Shown piece by piece: positions 51,842 to 60,958 of a DNA stretch of 64,000 nucleotides. Positions within the stretch are counted from its first letter, which is position 1; each line of letters opens with the position of its first letter. This stretch comes from Natrinema versiforme (GTDB lineage Archaea > Halobacteriota > Halobacteria > Halobacteriales > Natrialbaceae). The stretch is taken from NCBI RefSeq assembly GCF_005576615.1, contig NZ_CP040330.1:310001-374000 (forward strand). The letters are read 5' to 3'. The notes below the pieces were generated by a model that worked only from the letters and a program-made list of their open reading frames with translations, had not been told where the DNA came from and did no database searches. The position numbers were made by a program, and so were the translations under genes.

Positions 51842-52732
51842 TTACGTAATATCGAAGAAGTCCCCCTCCTCGCGCCCCGTCGTATCCGAGTAGTCCACTT
51901 GATAGGACTCGCCCGAACTGCCGGTCACATCGATGTTCTCTATTCTGATCGTGATTTCGCGTTCCGAGTTCCCTTGTCCCCCGTTGCCTTGGGAACTGTA
52001 CGTGAGCTGTGACGAGTCGGGATCGAACGTCAGTTCTCCATTGTGTTGTGTTTGGACGGTCACGTCTTCGGTAGTGACCGACGAGTAATCCACACCGCCG
52101 CTGCTCTGTGGCCGAGAGACGTTGACGGTCGCTTGGTCGTTGTTACCGAGCGACGAGACATCGAACGAAACGTTTTGCGTCGTGCTGTCAGTCGCTACAT
52201 CGCTCACCGTGAGCCCGGCCGATCCGCTGAACTTCCCCTTCCCACATTGGATCTCGACGGTCGTGTTGAACCTCGGACCAGCGATACTGATACTTTCCCC
52301 CTCGACGCGATCGACTCGAAACGTGACCTCGCGCTCGCCCACGCTCTGATCGTCGGCACATTCGACCGTGACACCGCTCGAACTACCGGTTTCGATCGTG
52401 TCACCGGCGTCCGGCGATGCGACGGCCACGATCGTATCGTCGACACTGTCGTCACCGATCGAAGCGACACTCACGTCTCGCACCTCGAGCGTCTCGCTGA
52501 CGTTGTTAGTGAGCGTTCCGACGGTCAGTGGATCGCTGTTCCCTCGCAACTCGGTTCCGGTCACGTCGCCCTCGCTTTCGATTCCGAGGTATGCGTCCGG
52601 GTCCGCGGCTGTCTGAACGCCGATCCCGCGGTCGGCTTCGAGGGAACTGAAGCCGGCCGACGGTCCGATCACTAATAGCGTGCCGATGATAGTGACTGCG
52701 ACCCCGATGTGTTTAATCGATTGCATACGCAT
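51842..52732 (-). CDS. TasA/camelysin-like secreted protein A, 296 aa
   Basis: A Sec-type hydrophobic signal (HIGVAVTIIGTLLVIGPSAG) is followed by GFSSLEADRGIGVQTAADPDA, of which GFSSLEADRG is the cluster motif. The mature part is beta-rich, with repeated VSV/VTV strands, conserved Cys in VECADDQS and VEIQCGKG, and a Gly-rich C-terminus. It resembles camelysin/TasA-type fibre subunits. Presumed cleaved by the neighbouring SipW-like peptidase. Start at 52732 (MRMQSIK) or 52726. Confidence 0.72.
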   Translation of the reverse strand: MRMQSIKHIGVAVTIIGTLLVIGPSAGFSSLEADRGIGVQTAADPDAYLGIESEGDVTGTELRGNSDPLTVGTLTNNVSETLEVRDVSVASIGDDSVDDTIVAVASPDAGDTIETGSSSGVTVECADDQSVGEREVTFRVDRVEGESISIAGPRFNTTVEIQCGKGKFSGSAGLTVSDVATDSTTQNVSFDVSSLGNNDQATVNVSRPQSSGGVDYSSVTTEDVTVQTQHNGELTFDPDSSQLTYSSQGNGGQGNSEREITIRIENIDVTGSSGESYQVDYSDTTGREEGDFFDIT

Positions 52733-53003
52733 TCGTTTACCCCTCGAATCCCCGGCCCCGGGAAACACCCCACGTCACTGCCCGCAGCCGCTTATCAGCT
52801 CCTTCGAATGCTCCGATAAAAACACGCTCTACCTTCCAGACCGTTCACGACGTTCACGATCGTTTAGTCCCCGTCGCAACCGCTCGAATGACCGTTCGAC
52901 GAATCAATCGCACAGAAGCGTCCGGTCACGCACAGCCGTCGCACGACTCGTACAACCGGTCGCCGCCGTATAGGTTACACCGTTGAGAACGAGCACGACG
53001 ACA

Positions 53004-54110
53004 TCAGTTTGACTCGACATCACCCGTCACATCTGCACCGTCGCTGATCGTCGTACTGCCGCCGGCATCGATATCCCCTTCGACGACTGCACCCCATTTG
53101 ACCACCACGTCGCCGTCGGCGTTAATGTCGCCGCGGATCGTGCTGTCCCCACCGATGACGACGTCACCGCCCGCAGTGATGTCGTCTCCGACCTCGGAGT
53201 TCCAACCGGTTTCGACGTTTCCGTCCGCGGTAATTTTGCCGCCGACCGTACTCGAGTCGCTGATCGTCACGTCACCGCCGGCCGTTATGTCGCCGCCGAC
53301 CTCGGAGTCCCAGCCCGTAGTCACGGACCCATCTGCGTCGATATCACCGCCGACCCGACTCAAGGACCCCGTCGAGACGTCACCGCCAGCCCTCACGTCC
53401 TCGCTGACCTCGGAGTCCCAGCCCGTAGTCACGGTCCCGTCCGCATCGATATTGCCACCGACGGTACTCGAGTCTCCCATCGAGGCATCACCGCCCGTGT
53501 CGACGTCGCCGGTGATCTCGGAGTCCCACCCCGAGGTGACGTCTCCATCACTGCTGACATCACCGTTTCTGACTTCACCGCCGCCGACGGTCGATCCGCC
53601 GGGATTGCCGCCCGGAGGCCCGGACCCACCGGGATTACATTCGTAGGTAAGCGCGCTTTCTACGGTGATTCCCGTCACCGTCACTCCGTCGGCGATCGCT
53701 TCTTCGACGGTGACGGTTACGGTCGTCGTCTCAGGACCCCGCGGACCGCCTCGGCTACTACACGCGACGAGAACTGACCCGGTGACGTTCCGCCCGATAG
53801 TCTCCGGAACGGTCGTCTCGAGGTCGCCCCCGCCGCTCGAGAACGCGACGCCGACCTCGAGAGCGGTGATATCCGACTCGAGGTTGTTCGTGATGACAGC
53901 GACTTCAGACTCGTCGTTTGGCCCGTCGATCGTGCTGTCGCTCGGGACGACGCCGATATTCGCGTTCTCGCCGGACGCCGTCTCCATGCTGACGCCGCGA
54001 TCGGCAGCCAGGGACGTGAACCCGTAGACTGGACCGGCAAGTAGCACCGCTCCGGCGACGATAAATACGGCTCCGAAGACGGTAACGATATTTCCGGACA
54101 CGGTGGTCAC
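53004..54110 (-). CDS. TasA-like secreted protein with bactofilin-like beta-solenoid, 368 aa
   Basis: It starts with GTG. The signal helix (about 8-28) ends in YGFTSLAADRGVSMETASGENA, of which GFTSLAADRG is the cluster motif. Residues ~35-165 form an Ig-like beta domain (AVITNNLESDITALEV; VTVTVEEAIADGVTVTG) with two Cys, then a Gly/Pro hinge (CNPGGSGPPGGNPGG). Residues ~180-365 are repeats of 36 residues, each of two 18-residue turns, e.g. NIDADGTVTTGWDSEVSE and DVRAGGDVSTGSLSRVGG: a right-handed beta-solenoid like bactofilins or polymer-forming proteins. Secreted scaffold or capping subunit is inferred. Confidence 0.8.
   Translation of the reverse strand: MTTVSGNIVTVFGAVFIVAGAVLLAGPVYGFTSLAADRGVSMETASGENANIGVVPSDSTIDGPNDESEVAVITNNLESDITALEVGVAFSSGGGDLETTVPETIGRNVTGSVLVACSSRGGPRGPETTTVTVTVEEAIADGVTVTGITVESALTYECNPGGSGPPGGNPGGSTVGGGEVRNGDVSSDGDVTSGWDSEITGDVDTGGDASMGDSSTVGGNIDADGTVTTGWDSEVSEDVRAGGDVSTGSLSRVGGDIDADGSVTTGWDSEVGGDITAGGDVTISDSSTVGGKITADGNVETGWNSEVGDDITAGGDVVIGGDSTIRGDINADGDVVVKWGAVVEGDIDAGGSTTISDGADVTGDVESN
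53010..53570 (-). repeat. 108-bp (36-residue) in-frame repeats encoding a beta-solenoid
   Basis: Four clear 36-residue units (…DADGTVTTGWDSEV…, …DADGSVTTGWDSEV…, …ADGNVETGWNSEV…, …NADGDVVVKWGAVV…) plus a degenerate first unit, each split into two 18-residue halves with the pattern xIxAxGxVxxGxxSxVxG. Confidence 0.8.
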
Positions 54111-54290: not shown

Positions 54291-54842
54291 TCACTCCTGA
54301 ACGCAGTCGATCTCTACGTCGCGCTCGAGTTCGACCGTGACATTGCCGTCGCTGGCTTTGACCCAGACCGTGACCGTCCCGGAATCTTCCGTCTGCTGTC
54401 TACTGAAGAGCCCATCTCTCTCTGCTGGGCACTTGAAATCCCCGAGGACAGCATTAATTTCATTCCCATTGTTCCTCGTCTCATCTCTCAGTTGGTCGCC
54501 TCTGATCATATCAGTGTTATCTATACTGATGTCGATCTCTTCAACCGTTAGCTGCTGCGACGATGTGTTATCCGCAAATACGACTATTTCTACGTCGTTA
54601 TATCGGAACCCATCACAAGGGCCAAAAATTATACACAACACTCCACGATCACTGTTAGAACTCTCTAATTCTATCTGCTCGCCGTTCGGATAGTCGAGAC
54701 TGAGAAGTGCAGACCCGTCACTCGCCGTTTCGACCGTGGAACCCCTGTCTGCGGCTGACGAATCGAATGCTCCGCTCGAGGCGGCAAGCGCGATTGCACC
54801 GACGACGACGAGCACGATGCCCAAGTACGTAATCACTCGCAT
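54291..54842 (-). CDS. TasA/camelysin-like secreted protein C, 183 aa
   Basis: Signal helix (YLGIVLVVVGAIALAASSGA) followed by the motif GAFDSSAADRGSTVETASDG, of which GAFDSSAADRG matches the cluster. The mature domain has beta strands around VEIVVFADNTSSQQLTVEEI and Cys residues in LCIIFGPCDGF, FKCPAE and EIDCVQE. Shorter than the two minus-strand paralogues downstream. Exported, presumed substrate of the adjacent peptidase. G+C a little lower than the surroundings. Confidence 0.72.
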   Translation of the reverse strand: MRVITYLGIVLVVVGAIALAASSGAFDSSAADRGSTVETASDGSALLSLDYPNGEQIELESSNSDRGVLCIIFGPCDGFRYNDVEIVVFADNTSSQQLTVEEIDISIDNTDMIRGDQLRDETRNNGNEINAVLGDFKCPAERDGLFSRQQTEDSGTVTVWVKASDGNVTVELERDVEIDCVQE

Positions 54843-54938
54843 ACTGAGTGGGTTTCAGACTGTCCCGCTGCTATTGTCCGTCTCAATTCCTATCGACACA
54901 TCGGTCGGAACACCGGTACCAACCTACGACTGCTGATA

Positions 54939-55472
54939 TCATGGCGGTTTCTCCATGTTCCCCAGTTGCATCCGTTGGTTCTGTATCACGTGGACGACCG
55001 CAGAGACTGCAAACAGGACGAAGACCGCTGTTGCCCACCCGAGTTCGGATATCGGGTTGGTCGGCACTATCTCGAGCCACACGCCGATCAAGACGGTCGA
55101 GCCGACCGCGGCTAACCCCAGATAGTAGGTCGCCCACGGAATCGAGTCCTCTGGGACGACGTCGAGGTAGACGTCCAGTCCGGCCGCCCCGTCGGTGAGT
55201 TCGATCGTTCGGTCGTCGAATTCGATCACGTTGGCCCGCTCGAGCGTGGGCAGATGGGTCTGCTGTAACGACGTGTAGACCCGCTTTCGTTCCGTCGAGG
55301 TTACTCCCCCGACCTCTTTGTCGAGTTCCCACGCTGCGACGTGTTCTGCGAGCGTCCCGAGTTCCACGGGGCCGTCTTCTTGTTTGCAGTAGTGGATTGC
55401 ATACCGTCGTCGGTGGTTACTCAACAGGTCGAAAATCTCCCCGCGATCCGGTCCCCCTGTTCTCGTCCCCAT
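54939..55472 (-). CDS. Membrane-tethered winged-helix regulator (DUF7344-like), 177 aa
   Basis: N-terminal ~95 residues: GEIFDLLSNHRRRYAIHYCK, LGTLAEHVAAWELDK, KRVYTSLQQTHLPTLERANV, IEFDDRTIELTDG, the typical DUF7344 winged helix of haloarchaea. Then two TM helices (about 115-135 and 143-163) and a short cytosolic tail. It is a one-component regulator held at the membrane, placed between the minus- and plus-strand halves of the secretion cluster, so it is the obvious candidate controller. TATA region 55505-55515. Confidence 0.85.
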   Translation of the reverse strand: MGTRTGGPDRGEIFDLLSNHRRRYAIHYCKQEDGPVELGTLAEHVAAWELDKEVGGVTSTERKRVYTSLQQTHLPTLERANVIEFDDRTIELTDGAAGLDVYLDVVPEDSIPWATYYLGLAAVGSTVLIGVWLEIVPTNPISELGWATAVFVLFAVSAVVHVIQNQRMQLGNMEKPP

Positions 55473-55890
55473 CGATCCCCTATTGGCTTGATACTGCTTT
55501 CTATTGATATATAACTCTTATCGCCATATTTTGGTGATGAGTGGCATACAACGGTTCTATTCGACGTTGAGAAACCGAACCCGTTGTCATCGGACTCGAG
55601 TTCTCGTTCGCCTCGGGACTCATGTCCATCGACCCGTCTGCTCGATAGCTGTGATCCGTTGACCCGCGGTTCGTTTCCGCAGGTTGCATGGGAGTGACGT
55701 GAGTCTGACACACACGACAGGCCCCGAAATACCGATCAAGGCCGGCTTGAACGTCGGTATGGCCGACCGATCGGACGTTCTGGTCACTCAATACAAAGGG
55801 GGTGGTGTTCGTGGAGATGAGTAAGGACCGCGTTCCGGGCCGTCGGGGGTACCGACGACTGCCGGCGCGGTTGTACGGAGACCATACACT
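55473..55890. other. Central intergenic of the secretion cluster
   Basis: Holds the TATA-like box of the winged-helix gene (55505-55515, minus) and, at the right edge, a mini-ORF (55817-55894) overlapping the filament gene. The middle 300 bp has no gene; longer frames are Arg/Ser-rich noise. The weak CAATACAAA at 55789-55797 may be the plus-strand promoter. Confidence 0.5.
55505..55515 (-). promoter_or_regulatory. TATA box of the winged-helix regulator
   Basis: TGATATATAAC region (minus strand reads GTTATATATCA) is 33-43 nt upstream of the ATG at 55472, allowing a leader of about a dozen nt. Confidence 0.55.
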
Positions 55891-55894
55891 ATGA
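55817..55894 (+). CDS. Mini-ORF overlapping filament gene 1 by ATGA, 25 aa
   Basis: ATG at 55817 opens 25 codons rich in Arg (KDRVPGRRGYRRLPARLYGD), ending in TGA at 55892-55894, which overlaps the ATG of the downstream gene. If translated, termination would place ribosomes on that start. Peptide function is doubtful. Confidence 0.35.
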   Translation: MSKDRVPGRRGYRRLPARLYGDHTL

Positions 55895-56436
55895 GAATGA
55901 ATCGACGCAACGTGTTAGTCGGATTGGGGACAATCGTCGCAGGTGGCGGAGCCGCTCTCGGGACGGGCGCGTTCAGTAGCGTGGAAGCGAACCGAACGGT
56001 TAGCGTCACGACCTCGGGCGACGCGAATGCGCTGGTCGCGTTCAATATCACCAGTAGTCTGCTCGAGGGATCGGAAGGGTCCGACGACGAGATGATCCAG
56101 TTCGATCTCGAAGACCTCAATATCGGTGCGATCACCCGCTTCGATGGCGGATTCGAGATCACGAACAATAGAGAAACCCAGAGTGATACGATTACCCTCT
56201 CCATCGACGACGGGGATGGCAATTCGATCACGACGACGGACGCTTCGGTAGAAGACGACGGGATGTATTTCGAGTACAGTGACGGCGATCTCACCGATAT
56301 CGATGGGGACGGTGGCAGTGTCACGCTCGATGTCGTGTTCAACCTCGAGAATTCGACCGATACTTCCACAGCGGATGGTAACCTCCCGTCTACTGTTGCG
56401 ATTACGGCAGACGATAGCAGTGGTGGGTCGGCATGA
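55891..56436 (+). CDS. TasA/DUF1102-like fibre subunit 1 with Tat-type signal, 181 aa
   Basis: Signal MNRRNVLVGLGTIVAGGGAA has a twin-Arg followed by a hydrophobic stretch, suggesting Tat export of a folded protein. Then GTGAFSSVEANRTVSV, the cluster motif. The mature part is a small beta domain (ALVAFNITSSL, GGFEITNNRETQSDTITL, VTLDVVFNLENS) ending in Gly/Ser. No Cys. This fits the DUF1102/TasA group of fibre-forming subunits. The next gene starts inside its stop codon (ATGA), so subunits 1 and 2 are coupled. Confidence 0.8.
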   Translation: MRMNRRNVLVGLGTIVAGGGAALGTGAFSSVEANRTVSVTTSGDANALVAFNITSSLLEGSEGSDDEMIQFDLEDLNIGAITRFDGGFEITNNRETQSDTITLSIDDGDGNSITTTDASVEDDGMYFEYSDGDLTDIDGDGGSVTLDVVFNLENSTDTSTADGNLPSTVAITADDSSGGSA

Positions 56437-56927
56437 GATTGAACAGACGCAACGTGATATTCGGCCTGGGAACGGTCGTTGCGGGCGGTGGAGTCGCCTT
56501 CGGTACCGGAGCGTTCAGTCAAGTTGAGGCGGACCGTACGATCACTGTCGATGTCGACGACGATCAAAACGCCTTCGTCAGTATTACGCCGAATGCTAAC
56601 ACTGATCTCGTGACCGTCGACGGCGACACTGGCCAGATAATGATCCAGTGGAACGCGGACGATTTCGGCGGTAGCGGTGCACATCAGAACGCGACGATCA
56701 TTATCGACGAAGCGATCGACTTCGCACATAACGGCGAGAGCGGGACAACCTACGAAGTGAGTATGGCTGATGACAATCTATCCGGGGACGCGAACATCGC
56801 GTTCACCAACGTTACTGAACCGATCGTCTTAGCGGAGGGGGACTCTACAACGGCCGGTCTGGAAATCACTACGTCTGACTCGAGCATCGAAAATGAGATG
56901 GTCACGTTAGAGATAACGGAACAGTAA
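56433..56927 (+). CDS. TasA/DUF1102-like fibre subunit 2 with Tat-type signal, 164 aa
   Basis: Close relative of the preceding protein: LNRRNVIFGLGTVVAGGGVA, then GTGAFSQVEADRTITVDVDD. The beta domain follows with strands NAFVSITPNANT, NATIIIDEAIDFAH and ENEMVTLEITEQ at the very end. The two subunits probably form a heteropolymer or major/minor pair. Starts within the stop of subunit 1 (ATGA). A stem-loop lies 25 bp after its stop. Confidence 0.8.
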   Translation: MRLNRRNVIFGLGTVVAGGGVAFGTGAFSQVEADRTITVDVDDDQNAFVSITPNANTDLVTVDGDTGQIMIQWNADDFGGSGAHQNATIIIDEAIDFAHNGESGTTYEVSMADDNLSGDANIAFTNVTEPIVLAEGDSTTAGLEITTSDSSIENEMVTLEITEQ

Positions 56928-57020: not shown

Positions 57021-58151
57021 ATGGTCTCAGCACGGATTCTGTTCGCTGCAGCCGCGCTTTGCTTTCTCTTCGCATTTGCAGCCCCGACTATGGCGCTTGC
57101 GATAGGCGAAGATTCGGCGAGCGACGACGTCGTTTTCGAGCCGGTTGACGAACGATACGCGACGATCGAAAACGGCAACCTCACGCTCGACATCGGCGTG
57201 TACGGCGATGCGATGACAACTATCGAAGACGTGTTCACGATTCGCATCGGGGAGGACGCTGACGACATCGGGGCGATTTGGATCGATCACGATGTCGACG
57301 GTGTGACCTTTTATGCCGGTGGCTCTCCGATCACCGACGAGTCGAGACTCGAGCCGGCACCCGGTGAAACCGTCACCGTGGGCGTGTCGATTAATACCCA
57401 TATCGCACCCACGGGTACGAAAACGTTCACCGTGCACGCTATCTCCGAAGACGAGACCGAGAACCGGAACGATGTCACCTCCTCGCCTCCGGGTGGAGTC
57501 ACTGTCGAGTCCCTCTCGGTCGACCCGCATTCGCTCGAGACCGGCCAGACGGTAACGGTGAACGCGACCTACCGAAACTTCGGCGAAACTGAGACGATAA
57601 CGCCGCGCCTGACCGTCGACGGGACCGTCGTCGACCAGCGGTCGATCGACCTCGAGCCGGGAGAGACGGAGACGGTCAGTTTCGAGCGGCGGATGGACTG
57701 GCCCGGGGCGTACGAGGTCGGAATCGCGGGCGTCGGCACCGAATCGGTGACCGTCGAGGGGCCGCCGATCGATGTCGTCGACGCGACTATCGACGACGCG
57801 GAACTCACGGCCGGCGAGTCGACCGCGGTTCGGGCGACGGTCAGGAACCCCACAAATACGGCGGTTGATCGCACGCTCGAGGTCGCGGTCGACGGGACCG
57901 TCGTCGATAGCCGAGCCGTCACGATTCCGGCGAACGGCGAGCGGACGGTCGTCTTCGAACGGCGGTTCGACGAGGTAGGGACGTACGAAATCGGAGTCAG
58001 CGGCGTCGGTGCGGGGACGGTTACTGTCTCCGAGCCGGAGACGTTCTCGATCCGGAACCGGGAGCTCTCGGCGGCGATCGCGCCACCGGCAACGGCGGGG
58101 CTGTTGTTCCTCGCGATGGCTGCGAACCGTCGGTGGGCGTTCGTTCAGTAA
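57021..58151 (+). CDS. CARDB-domain cell-surface protein, 376 aa
   Basis: Sec signal helix (ILFAAAALCFLFAFAAPTMA). Residues ~30-160 form an unassigned beta domain like that of DUF-type archaeal surface proteins (FTIRIGEDADDIGAIWIDHD). Two CARDB Ig-like domains follow: ~165-250 (SVDPHSLETGQTVTVNATYR) and ~255-340 (ATIDDAELTAGESTAVRATV), then a C-terminal TM helix (AAIAPPATAGLLFLAMAA) and a short basic end. A type I surface-anchored protein, plausible anchor or minor component of the adjacent fibre. Confidence 0.8.
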   Translation: MVSARILFAAAALCFLFAFAAPTMALAIGEDSASDDVVFEPVDERYATIENGNLTLDIGVYGDAMTTIEDVFTIRIGEDADDIGAIWIDHDVDGVTFYAGGSPITDESRLEPAPGETVTVGVSINTHIAPTGTKTFTVHAISEDETENRNDVTSSPPGGVTVESLSVDPHSLETGQTVTVNATYRNFGETETITPRLTVDGTVVDQRSIDLEPGETETVSFERRMDWPGAYEVGIAGVGTESVTVEGPPIDVVDATIDDAELTAGESTAVRATVRNPTNTAVDRTLEVAVDGTVVDSRAVTIPANGERTVVFERRFDEVGTYEIGVSGVGAGTVTVSEPETFSIRNRELSAAIAPPATAGLLFLAMAANRRWAFVQ

Positions 58152-58451: not shown

Positions 58452-58455
58452 ATGA
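58429..58455 (+). CDS. Mini-ORF overlapping the signal-peptidase gene by ATGA, 8 aa
   Basis: Encodes MNILVTTR, and its TGA (58453-58455) overlaps the peptidase ATG (58452-58454). The TATA box is spaced for this ATG. It would act as a leader cistron for termination-reinitiation. Confidence 0.4.
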   Translation: MNILVTTR

Positions 58456-59633
58456 CCGCCGCCACGCTCGCTAAGCGGGGAGTCGGGCTCGCAATCGCGC
58501 TGGTCGTCGTCCTCCTGCTGGTCGGCCAACTCCTCGGGCAGCCGATCCTGCTGGGCTACGTCGCGACCGGCAGCATGGAGCCGACGATGGACGCCGGCGA
58601 CGGGTTCGTCGCGATACCCAGCATCGCCGCGGGCGATGTCGAGGAAGGCGACGTGGTCGTCTATCAGGCCAGAGATCTCCACGACGGCGGGCTGACGACC
58701 CACCGCGTCGTCGGCGAGACGGAGGAGGGGTACGTCACGAAGGGTGACGCGAACCCGTTTACCGATCAGGACGGCGGCGAACCTCACGTCACCGAGGGCC
58801 AGATCGTCGCCGAGGTCTTGCAGGGACACGGCACCGTCGTCACCGTTCCGTACCTCGGGAGCGCGATCATGGGTGTGCAGGGACTCGCGGAGCGGGCCTA
58901 CGGGACGGTCGCGCCGATACTCGGGTTGACGACGACCGCGTCCTCGAACGGCCTCGGCTCCATGCTCGTCGCGGCCGGCGTCGCCATGCTCGGCTTCGGC
59001 ACGCTGCTCGAGCGACTCGGGCCGTCTCGGCGCGAGGTGACGCGCTCGCGGTCGCGCGAGAACGTCATCGCGTTCTGGACCGCGCTCGGCCTCGTGTTGT
59101 TCGTGTTCGTCACGTTCGCGACCGCGGCGATGGTCGTCCCGTCGGGCACCACCGAGTACGAACTCGTCAGTACCGAGACCCCCGGCGACGACCCACAGAT
59201 CGTCGCGCCCGGTGGGACGACGGAACTCTCTCGCACCGTCGACAACGCCGGCTACCTGCCGGTGGTGGTCGTCCACGAGGCGGAGAGCGGGGGGATCAGC
59301 ACCGATCCCTCACAGCAGACGATCGGGATACGCGACAGCGGCGAGACGACGGTGACGCTGTCGACCCCCGAGGAGACGGGCGAGTACACGCGCCACCTCG
59401 GCGAGTACCGGTATCTCGCCGTGTTACCGCCGTCAGTGCTGGGCTGGCTTCACACTCTACACCCGCTCGCCGCCATCGCGGCGGTAAACGGCGTCATCGT
59501 CGGGGTATCCGTCGCAATCGTGCTCGTGATCTTCGGCAGCGGCGACATCCGCTACCGGTCCGCGGGCGATCACGTCTCGCTCTCGACTCGGCTCGAGCGG
59601 AAACTCCGGAAGTGGCTCCGGAATCGAGAGTAG
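58452..59633 (+). CDS. SipW/ER-type signal peptidase I with C-terminal exported beta domain, 393 aa
   Basis: Membrane serine peptidase. TM1 (about 9-29), catalytic Ser in VATGSMEPTMDAGD near residue 40, the His that replaces the bacterial Lys in LTTHRVVGE near 80, and the Asp-bearing KGDANPFTDQDG near 95: the Ser-His ER/SipW type. After this ~140-residue core come TM helices near 175-195 and 208-232, an exported beta domain (about 235-320; VAPGGTTELSRTVDNAGYLP), a last TM (about 335-360) and a basic tail. The extra domain is absent from ordinary peptidases. Predicted to cleave the neighbouring fibre precursors. Confidence 0.88.
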   Translation: MTAATLAKRGVGLAIALVVVLLLVGQLLGQPILLGYVATGSMEPTMDAGDGFVAIPSIAAGDVEEGDVVVYQARDLHDGGLTTHRVVGETEEGYVTKGDANPFTDQDGGEPHVTEGQIVAEVLQGHGTVVTVPYLGSAIMGVQGLAERAYGTVAPILGLTTTASSNGLGSMLVAAGVAMLGFGTLLERLGPSRREVTRSRSRENVIAFWTALGLVLFVFVTFATAAMVVPSGTTEYELVSTETPGDDPQIVAPGGTTELSRTVDNAGYLPVVVVHEAESGGISTDPSQQTIGIRDSGETTVTLSTPEETGEYTRHLGEYRYLAVLPPSVLGWLHTLHPLAAIAAVNGVIVGVSVAIVLVIFGSGDIRYRSAGDHVSLSTRLERKLRKWLRNRE

Positions 59634-59681: not shown

Positions 59682-59777
59682 ATGCAGTATCCCGATGACC
59701 GACCAGTTCGGAAACGGACGGGTCGGCCAGCGGGCGCGTTCGGACGGAGTGGCTGGGGATCGGGGGACGACGGATGA
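59682..59777 (+). CDS. Mini-ORF overlapping the DUF5305 gene by ATGA, 31 aa
   Basis: Starts MQYPDDRPVRKRTGRPAGAF and ends Gly/Asp-rich; its TGA (59775-59777) overlaps the DUF5305 ATG (59774-59776). Basic and Gly-rich, so a coupling leader rather than a functional protein is more likely. Confidence 0.4.
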   Translation: MQYPDDRPVRKRTGRPAGAFGRSGWGSGDDG

Positions 59778-60958
59778 TCGACAACCCGCGACTCGAGTTG
59801 TTGCTCGTCAAACAGGGGCGGGCGATCGCTATCGCGCTGATCGTTATCGGTGCCCTCGCGATCGTCGCGACCGGGTGGGCCGTCGCGAACCCGGAGACGA
59901 CGACCTCACCCCAGTTCGACGAGGAACGCGTCGCGACTGACGCACAGACGAGCGCGCTGGTCTCCGAGAACGGCACGCTCTGGACCGAAGGCGACCGCCT
60001 CACGGACAGTTCGGTCTACGTGTTGAACACCTCGCCGGAGCTCACGGTCGAGCCGGAGACGACGCTGCGAAACGAGACCGGCGGCGTCCCGGTCGAGGAT
60101 GGGGACGTCACCCACGAATTGCGGCTTCGATTCGAGGCGATCCGCGACGGCGATTCGTTCTGGAACGAGTCCCATCGAGTGCTCCGCGACTCGCCGTCGG
60201 TCGAGAACGGGGTCGCCACGTCGGAGACGCCGATCGATATGGAGTCCTATCGCGAGCGACAGCGCCAACTCGAGCGGGAAGTCAGCGGTATCGGCTCGGT
60301 CGAACTCACGATGGAACTGCGCGTCGAGTACGACACGGGCCACCATCGTGGCACGTTCACGACCGAGACGCCGGTGGTGATCACGGACGACGCCTACTGG
60401 CTGGAGGGGTCGCTGTCGGACTCGGCCGCCCACAGCCACCGGAGCGGCACGGAGCGGACGACCGAGTCCCGGAGTCCGGCGCTCATCGGTGGGCTCTCGG
60501 TGCTCGGGACGCTCTCGCTCGCCGGTGGGGCGATCGTCGCCCGCCGGTCGCCGACGGACCTCGAGGCCGCCCGCCGCGCGGTCCACGAACAGCGGTACGC
60601 CGAGTGGATCTCGCGGGGCTCGATCCCGATGTGGATCGGCGACTACCACGTCTCGCTCGATACCCTCGAGGACGTGGTCGATGTCGCGATCGACACCAAC
60701 GAGCGCGTCGTCCACGACGAGCAGCGGGGGCTGTTCGCGGTCGTCAACGACGGCGTCGTCTACTACTACAGCGACCGCGGCCTCTGGGAGGAGACCGCGT
60801 GGCCGGAGATGGATCTCGAGGAACAGCCGGCCGTCATCGACGGCGACAGGGAGATGTCGGTCGAGGAAATCGCGGAACTCGACCCGAGCGACGAGTTCGC
60901 GTCCCCCGACGATGCGGACGGGTTCGAAGACGACGAGGACGTCTGGAACCAACTGTAG
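59774..60958 (+). CDS. DUF5305 membrane protein, 394 aa
   Basis: TM helix at ~17-38 (RAIAIALIVIGALAIVATGW), an exported beta-rich domain (about 45-230; LYVLN-type strands such as SVYVLNTSPELTVEPETTL and VELTMELRVEYDTGHHRG), a second TM at ~240-260 (LIGGLSVLGTLSLAGGAIVA), and a cytosolic acidic tail (about 270-394) with VVYYYSDRGLWEE. DUF5305 genes commonly sit beside archaeal SipW-like peptidases. Probably an accessory for export or assembly of the fibre proteins. Last gene of the cluster. Confidence 0.82.
   Translation: MIDNPRLELLLVKQGRAIAIALIVIGALAIVATGWAVANPETTTSPQFDEERVATDAQTSALVSENGTLWTEGDRLTDSSVYVLNTSPELTVEPETTLRNETGGVPVEDGDVTHELRLRFEAIRDGDSFWNESHRVLRDSPSVENGVATSETPIDMESYRERQRQLEREVSGIGSVELTMELRVEYDTGHHRGTFTTETPVVITDDAYWLEGSLSDSAAHSHRSGTERTTESRSPALIGGLSVLGTLSLAGGAIVARRSPTDLEAARRAVHEQRYAEWISRGSIPMWIGDYHVSLDTLEDVVDVAIDTNERVVHDEQRGLFAVVNDGVVYYYSDRGLWEETAWPEMDLEEQPAVIDGDREMSVEEIAELDPSDEFASPDDADGFEDDEDVWNQL

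Follow-up and report, generated by a model that had tools for sequence, protein, structure and literature searches.

Tat-type and Sec-type signals before a common junction in a putative tafi-like fimbria locus of Natrinema versiforme

The window analyzed here is a 64 kb stretch of Natrinema versiforme DNA, which includes five genes for proteins with a common N-terminal junction, a signal peptidase gene, and several neighbors. The sequence-only reading of this DNA was placed on 54,291 to 56,927, and two of the minus-strand subunit genes (53,004 to 54,110 and 51,842 to 52,732) lie outside that span. The genes of the cluster are as follows:

51,842 to 52,732, minus strand: Sec-type TafC-like subunit, MRMQSIKHIGVAVTIIGTLLVIGPSAG followed by FSSLEADR, two Cys
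53,004 to 54,110, minus strand: Sec-type TafC-like subunit with a C-terminal bactofilin-like beta-helix, signal ending in FGAVFIVAGAVLLAGPVYG followed by FTSLAADR, two Cys
54,291 to 54,842, minus strand: small Sec-type subunit, no Arg pair, MRVITYLGIVLVVVGAIALAASSGA followed by FDSSAADR, four mature Cys
54,939 to 55,472, minus strand: DUF7344 protein (PF24035, 102.4 bits), a conserved neighbor with the same orientation as the Sec-type subunits
55,891 to 56,436, plus strand: Tat-type fimbrial subunit 1 (TafE/TafA-like), RR signal MRMNRRNVLVGLGTIVAGGGAALGTGA followed by FSSVEANR, no mature Cys
56,433 to 56,927, plus strand: Tat-type fimbrial subunit 2, RR signal MRLNRRNVIFGLGTVVAGGGVAFGTGA followed by FSQVEADR
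57,021 to 58,151, plus strand: CARDB-domain protein (CARDB 45.4 bits, over the cut-off), between the subunits and the peptidase, in the same place in most relatives
58,452 to 59,633, plus strand: Sec11/SipW-type signal peptidase (TIGR02228 61.9 bits, over the cut-off of 51.85)
59,774 to 60,958, plus strand: DUF5305 membrane protein (PF17231, 162.7 bits), a conserved neighbor downstream of the peptidase

The two plus-strand subunit genes form an ATGA overlap, in which the ATG of subunit 2 overlaps both the final codon and the stop codon of subunit 1. The start of 51,842-52,732 is a chosen ATG, with an in-frame GTG at 52,768. The five junction proteins are mutually related, with BLASTP E values below 1e-4 in 10 of 10 pairs (composition correction off), although the signal and junction contribute some of this similarity. 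The small Sec-type subunit belongs to a 12-member family whose alignment has two invariant Cys columns. In Pfam, no family was over its cut-off in the five proteins except Bactofilin in 53,004-54,110 (37.7 bits, cut-off 27.9). The bactofilin domain is better known from the bacterial cytoskeleton, and here the bactofilin-like beta-helix ends an exported TafC-like protein, possibly as a tip or surface domain.

The plus-strand signals carry the motifs RRNVL (subunit 1) and RRNVI (subunit 2), and RR is absent from the three minus-strand proteins. The h-region hydropathy (Kyte-Doolittle mean over 20 residues) is 1.58 and 1.60 in the RR pair and 2.11, 2.07, and 1.66 in the other three. A Tat signal has RR-x-hydrophobic-hydrophobic before a weakly hydrophobic stretch, a combination found in the plus-strand pair only. 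The earlier description of two plus-strand proteins with an Arg pair and three hydrophobic minus-strand signals without one is therefore confirmed in the sequence. TatC is encoded in the genome. The curated Tat model TIGR01409 scores subunit 1 at 13.7 bits, under its cut-off of 16.7, and does not list subunit 2; therefore, the pair is called Tat-type here and is not presented as proven Tat substrates.

The junctions, with a hyphen at the putative cut, are located as follows:

52,628 to 52,663, minus strand: PSAG-FSSLEADR of gene 51,842-52,732, Phe codon at 52,651
53,997 to 54,032, minus strand: PVYG-FTSLAADR of gene 53,004-54,110, Phe codon at 54,020
54,744 to 54,779, minus strand: SSGA-FDSSAADR of gene 54,291-54,842, Phe codon at 54,767
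55,960 to 55,995, plus strand: GTGA-FSSVEANR of subunit 1, Phe codon at 55,972, putative cleavage site and donor-strand start
56,502 to 56,537, plus strand: GTGA-FSQVEADR of subunit 2, Phe codon at 56,514

The sequence-only reading had proposed a common GAFSS..ADR junction. None of the five subunits contains this as a literal string, but all of them contain a looser version, [AG]F[STD][SQ]..A[DN]R. This pattern was composed post hoc from the five sequences themselves. A six-frame search of the 64 kb finds it 5 times, whereas 200 shuffles of the translated frames contain it 0.005 times on average. PDB 9p0a ("Structure of Natrinema sp. J7-2 Tafi pilus") has a sequence of 215 residues, and the compared chain has 188 residues and ends at residue 215. 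If these are contiguous, the chain begins at Phe28, the residue to which position 1 of the mature-part profile aligns and thus the junction Phe. A chain start at this Phe makes it very probable that the peptidase cuts at the junction and that the mature protein opens with the junction residues. TapA and TasA of Bacillus have a common donor strand and are both cut by SipW, according to an excerpt of PMC9674648. In the structure models of both the Tat-type and the Sec-type subunit, the first 15-20 residues have low confidence. The structural match of the Tat-type model to 9p0a and 7ueg begins at residue 17-20, which places segment 1-19 outside the globular domain. A low-confidence N-terminus followed by a late-starting match fits what a free donor strand would look like in such models.

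Haloarchaeal Tat-fimbriae (tafi) have reportedly been described by Galeva et al. 2025, in a paper whose title is said to call the fimbria Tat-dependent. The sequence-only reading overlooked the kinship of the present locus with this fimbria, which appears in matches to PDB 9p0a and to the NCBIfam families TafE and TafC. Against TafE (NF052522), subunit 1 scores 95.3 bits (E 3.3e-27) and subunit 2 scores 67.0 bits (E 1.7e-18), both under the cut-off of 155. TafC (NF052521) matches 54,291-54,842 at 24.3 bits (E 1.5e-5), 53,004-54,110 at E 5e-9, and 51,842-52,732 at E 4.8e-7. The best score among these three is 35.7 bits against a cut-off of 410, which is passed in only 2 of 149 genomes. Since all these scores are well below the curated cut-offs, the subunits are filed as tafi relatives and not as TafE or TafC. 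PDB 9p0a matches subunit 1 at E 4.7e-21, subunit 2 at E 1.8e-12, and a profile of the plus-strand mature parts at E 2.6e-16; the minus-strand profiles reach it weakly (E 4.2 and 0.6). The structure alignments used selected members (30 Tat-type and 12 small Sec-type). The Tat-type model matches the 9p0a fold with a middling Z of 6.5 (rmsd 3.3, 117 aligned), and the best fold matches of the Sec-type model are general Ig-like domains, with 9p0a absent among the 50 matches listed. At E <= 0.001, neither model had a Foldseek match. An excerpt of PMC12687288 describes thin haloarchaeal filaments whose components are exported by Tat and whose core component is TafA. Judged by these similarities, the locus is related to the haloarchaeal Tat-fimbriae, a fibre type that is already known. 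DUF1102 was an initial guess at the family and was rejected; a literature search on it gave no paper. The "Tafi" of PMC7616799 is an unrelated Salmonella fimbria.

A survey of haloarchaeal loci was anchored on the peptidase, not on the subunits, and covered 80 of 265 peptidase relatives together with the window (81 loci). Subunits were called by a junction score of at least 6, a mature length of at least 70, an acidic character, and at most three polar or charged residues among the last 20 of the signal. This yielded 174 junction-bearing subunits, 114 with RR and 60 without. Both signal types were found in 43 of the 81 loci, only Tat-like signals in 26, only Sec-like signals in 4, and none in 8. 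The median hydropathy is 1.50 with RR (range 0.79-2.01) and 1.96 without (range 1.56-2.46), with overlapping ranges. At a threshold of 1.75, chosen post hoc from the data, 108 of 114 RR subunits fall below and 51 of 60 no-RR subunits lie at or above. Of 57 subunits without RR, 51 are encoded on the opposite strand to the peptidase gene, and of 106 Tat-like subunits, 77 share its strand (Fisher p 8e-15, with rows that are not independent). Therefore, the layout of the window is a conserved arrangement, which is clearest in loci L107-L145. The relatives fetched usually have a single cluster of Tat-type subunit, CARDB protein, peptidase, and DUF5305 protein with DUF7344 nearby, and several loci are without one or more of these members within the stretch read. 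Four organisms contribute two divergent copies each to the peptidase scan (L107/L158, L122/L186, L137/L183, and L141/L167), which suggests two fimbria systems per genome. One contig filed as a Mollicutes bacterium MAG (L185) bears a haloarchaeal fimbria locus and is probably mis-assigned.

The position of the minus-strand genes, which form a separate cluster on the other strand, would also suit envelope proteins that are no fibre subunits but are signal-anchored or separately secreted, have only their ancestry in common with the subunits, and keep the hydrophobic segment as an anchor. Their hydrophobic segments are long, and one of them (53,004-54,110) has the C-terminal bactofilin-like domain. 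This reading is nevertheless unlikely, given that the junction and N-terminal strand are retained: among the 60 no-RR subunits, position 1 is F in 91% and position 8 is R in 100%, a conservation that is partly circular because the subunits were found by a junction profile.

Natural variants of the Arg pair exist. NRKNVL occupies the Tat-type slot in Natrinema limicola (L115:8039), Natrinema hispanicum (L124:8034), and Natribaculum breve (L137:8065), which form one clade with a support of 97. The signals of this clade have a hydropathy of 2.01-2.23, and its members have no Cys. Going by sequence, this clade seems to have switched from Tat to Sec and retained the junction, although an RK signal might still function in Tat. 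The same variants bear on the proposal that all five proteins are exported by Sec and that the Arg pairs are ordinary positive charge, since they indicate that RR is not absolutely needed in this slot; a chance RR also occurs in some hydrophobic signals, such as those of L127 and L153. However, the hydropathy climbs in the NRK clade as if the route had switched, and the related tafi is reportedly called Tat-dependent in the title of its paper. In addition, the RR signals across the survey are less hydrophobic, matching the trend for Tat signals given in an excerpt of PMC2945643. Export of all five by one route is therefore very improbable.

Mature Cys content differs between the classes. Among the 60 no-RR subunits there are 0 Cys in 3, 2 in 30, 4 in 24, and 6 in 3, and an odd number in none; the three Cys-free members are the NRK clade of the Tat-type subunit. 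The 114 RR subunits have 0 in 87, 1 in 8, 2 in 13, 3 in 1, 4 in 3, 6 in 1, and 8 in 1, so that 9 of the 27 Cys-bearing ones have an odd number. In a background of 600 crude ORFs, 32% are Cys-free and 58% of the Cys-bearers are odd. Two columns predominate among the Cys, with a usual spacing of 36-45 residues. Tat carries folded proteins from the reducing cytoplasm, and an external disulfide is expected after unfolded export and is awkward for Tat. The even-Cys signature suggests that a disulfide is formed outside the cell, as would be expected of Sec rather than Tat, and this trait of the mature part supports two routes. The two signal classes of the earlier reading are thus upheld by Arg pair, hydropathy, and gene orientation. 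Mature Cys content supports them as well, as a line of evidence separate from the signal peptide. A search of the genome for VKOR found none at E <= 0.001, but three DsbA-like Thioredoxin_4 matches keep a disulfide route possible.

Common descent could explain part of this link between cysteines and route. The TafC-like side of the tree comprises 74 rows. Of its 51 no-RR rows, 50 have both Cys columns. The 18 RR rows with weak hydropathy have neither column in 12, one in 1, and both in 5, and the five RR rows with strong hydropathy have both in 3 and one in 2. A careful tree of this side gives five route changes, two of them forced by supported branches, and five Cys-pair changes. The sign test of route against Cys pair has only 2 independent pairs on well-supported branches of this tree, too few to be informative, and it was likewise uninformative on a quick tree of the 174 subunits thinned to 165 rows. 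Five subunits (L157, L169, L177, L182, and L185) are exceptions in that they combine RR and Tat-like hydropathy with a retained Cys pair, and those of Halobellus and Halorubrum (L157, L169, L177, and L182) have MKRRH/MKRRR signals.

By its TIGR02228 score and conserved residues, 58,452-59,633 is an archaeal-type signal peptidase I. Ser41, His84, Asp99, and Asp105, which we take to be the catalytic residues, are invariant in 14 of 14 aligned sequences. The protein matches PDB Sec11A at E 2.5e-5 and the SipW model of Bacilli (NF046067) at 39.4 bits, below the cut-off of 190. Beyond the catalytic part it has an extra outer domain and more hydrophobic segments, reminiscent of the neighboring CARDB and DUF5305 proteins, and it may combine the role of a platform with that of a protease. 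One signal peptidase cutting both Tat and Sec precursors is ordinary biology, so "one peptidase, two routes" is not unusual in itself. Since a Sec11/SipW-type gene lies in the cluster, here and in relatives, it is plausible that one peptidase serves both routes. The genome has two further TIGR02228 matches elsewhere, and the residues before the cut differ by class (GTGA in the Tat-type, P-S/T-F/G-G without RR), as would be expected if the cluster enzyme cut the Tat-type proteins and a general Sec11 cut the others. We consider this division of labor rather doubtful. The Phe after the cut is common to both classes, and TasA, which has Phe at P2' and Trp at P2, is poorly cut by E. coli LepB and is cut by SipW, according to an excerpt of PMC10269814; by this analogy, a shared specialized enzyme would be simpler.

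Taken together, it is reasonably probable that this is a tafi-like fimbria locus with Tat- and Sec-exported subunits, one cleavage site, and a common donor strand. Its two kinds of beta-sandwich subunit would differ in where they fold: the plus-strand proteins would fold in the cytoplasm and exit through Tat, and the minus-strand proteins would exit unfolded through Sec and form their disulfide outside. The likeliest enzyme for cutting both is the SipW/Sec11-type peptidase encoded in the cluster. Cleavage would fall directly ahead of their common Phe and release a common N-terminal strand, F-S-S-x-x-A-D-R-x-V-x-V, for donation into the next subunit. In this way, the Sec-type proteins could be incorporated into, or cap, a fibre consisting mostly of Tat-type subunits, comparable to the TapA/TasA donor strand in Bacillus. 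More tentatively, it can be hypothesized that a single extracellular fibre combines Cys-free subunits exported folded by Tat with subunits exported unfolded by Sec and disulfide-bonded outside, linked by a common cleavage site and an interchangeable donor strand, and that the route changed more than once in haloarchaeal evolution, with the Cys pair often gained or lost alongside. The fibre type is known, and the interest lies in the mixed use of routes by one fimbria family, with cysteines as the marker. No description of mixed Tat/Sec routing in a fimbria was recognized in the literature searched, a scope that does not include the tafi description of Galeva et al. 2025. If both kinds enter one fibre, the locus would offer a natural setting in which to study what makes a protein use Tat instead of Sec, with homologous subunits that have a common cleavage site and differ in signal and Cys content and presumably also in where they fold. 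The even-Cys signature and the NRK variants lend themselves to direct mutational tests in haloarchaea that are harmless and genetically tractable.

Three known systems can be compared with this locus. Bacillus TasA and TapA are both exported by Sec, whereas the plus-strand class here carries Tat signals. The TasA-TapA-SipW system of Bacillus subtilis resembles the locus in being a fibre-subunit operon with a special Sec11-like peptidase and subunits with a common donor strand, as described in an excerpt of PMC9674648. The archaeal bundling pili (7ueg) and Sulfolobus threads (7pnb) are the top two Foldseek matches of the Tat-type model, with VIA Z of 6.9 and 4.9 and Foldseek E values of 0.076 and 0.043, which are not significant. 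We know of no Tat signal in these two filaments. With tafi and 9p0a, the locus has in common a near-identical RR signal and junction and a beta-sandwich domain. In contrast to tafi, three of the five subunits here are without RR; in the relative L067, whose TafC is over the curated cut-off, RR is present in all three junction-bearing subunits found.
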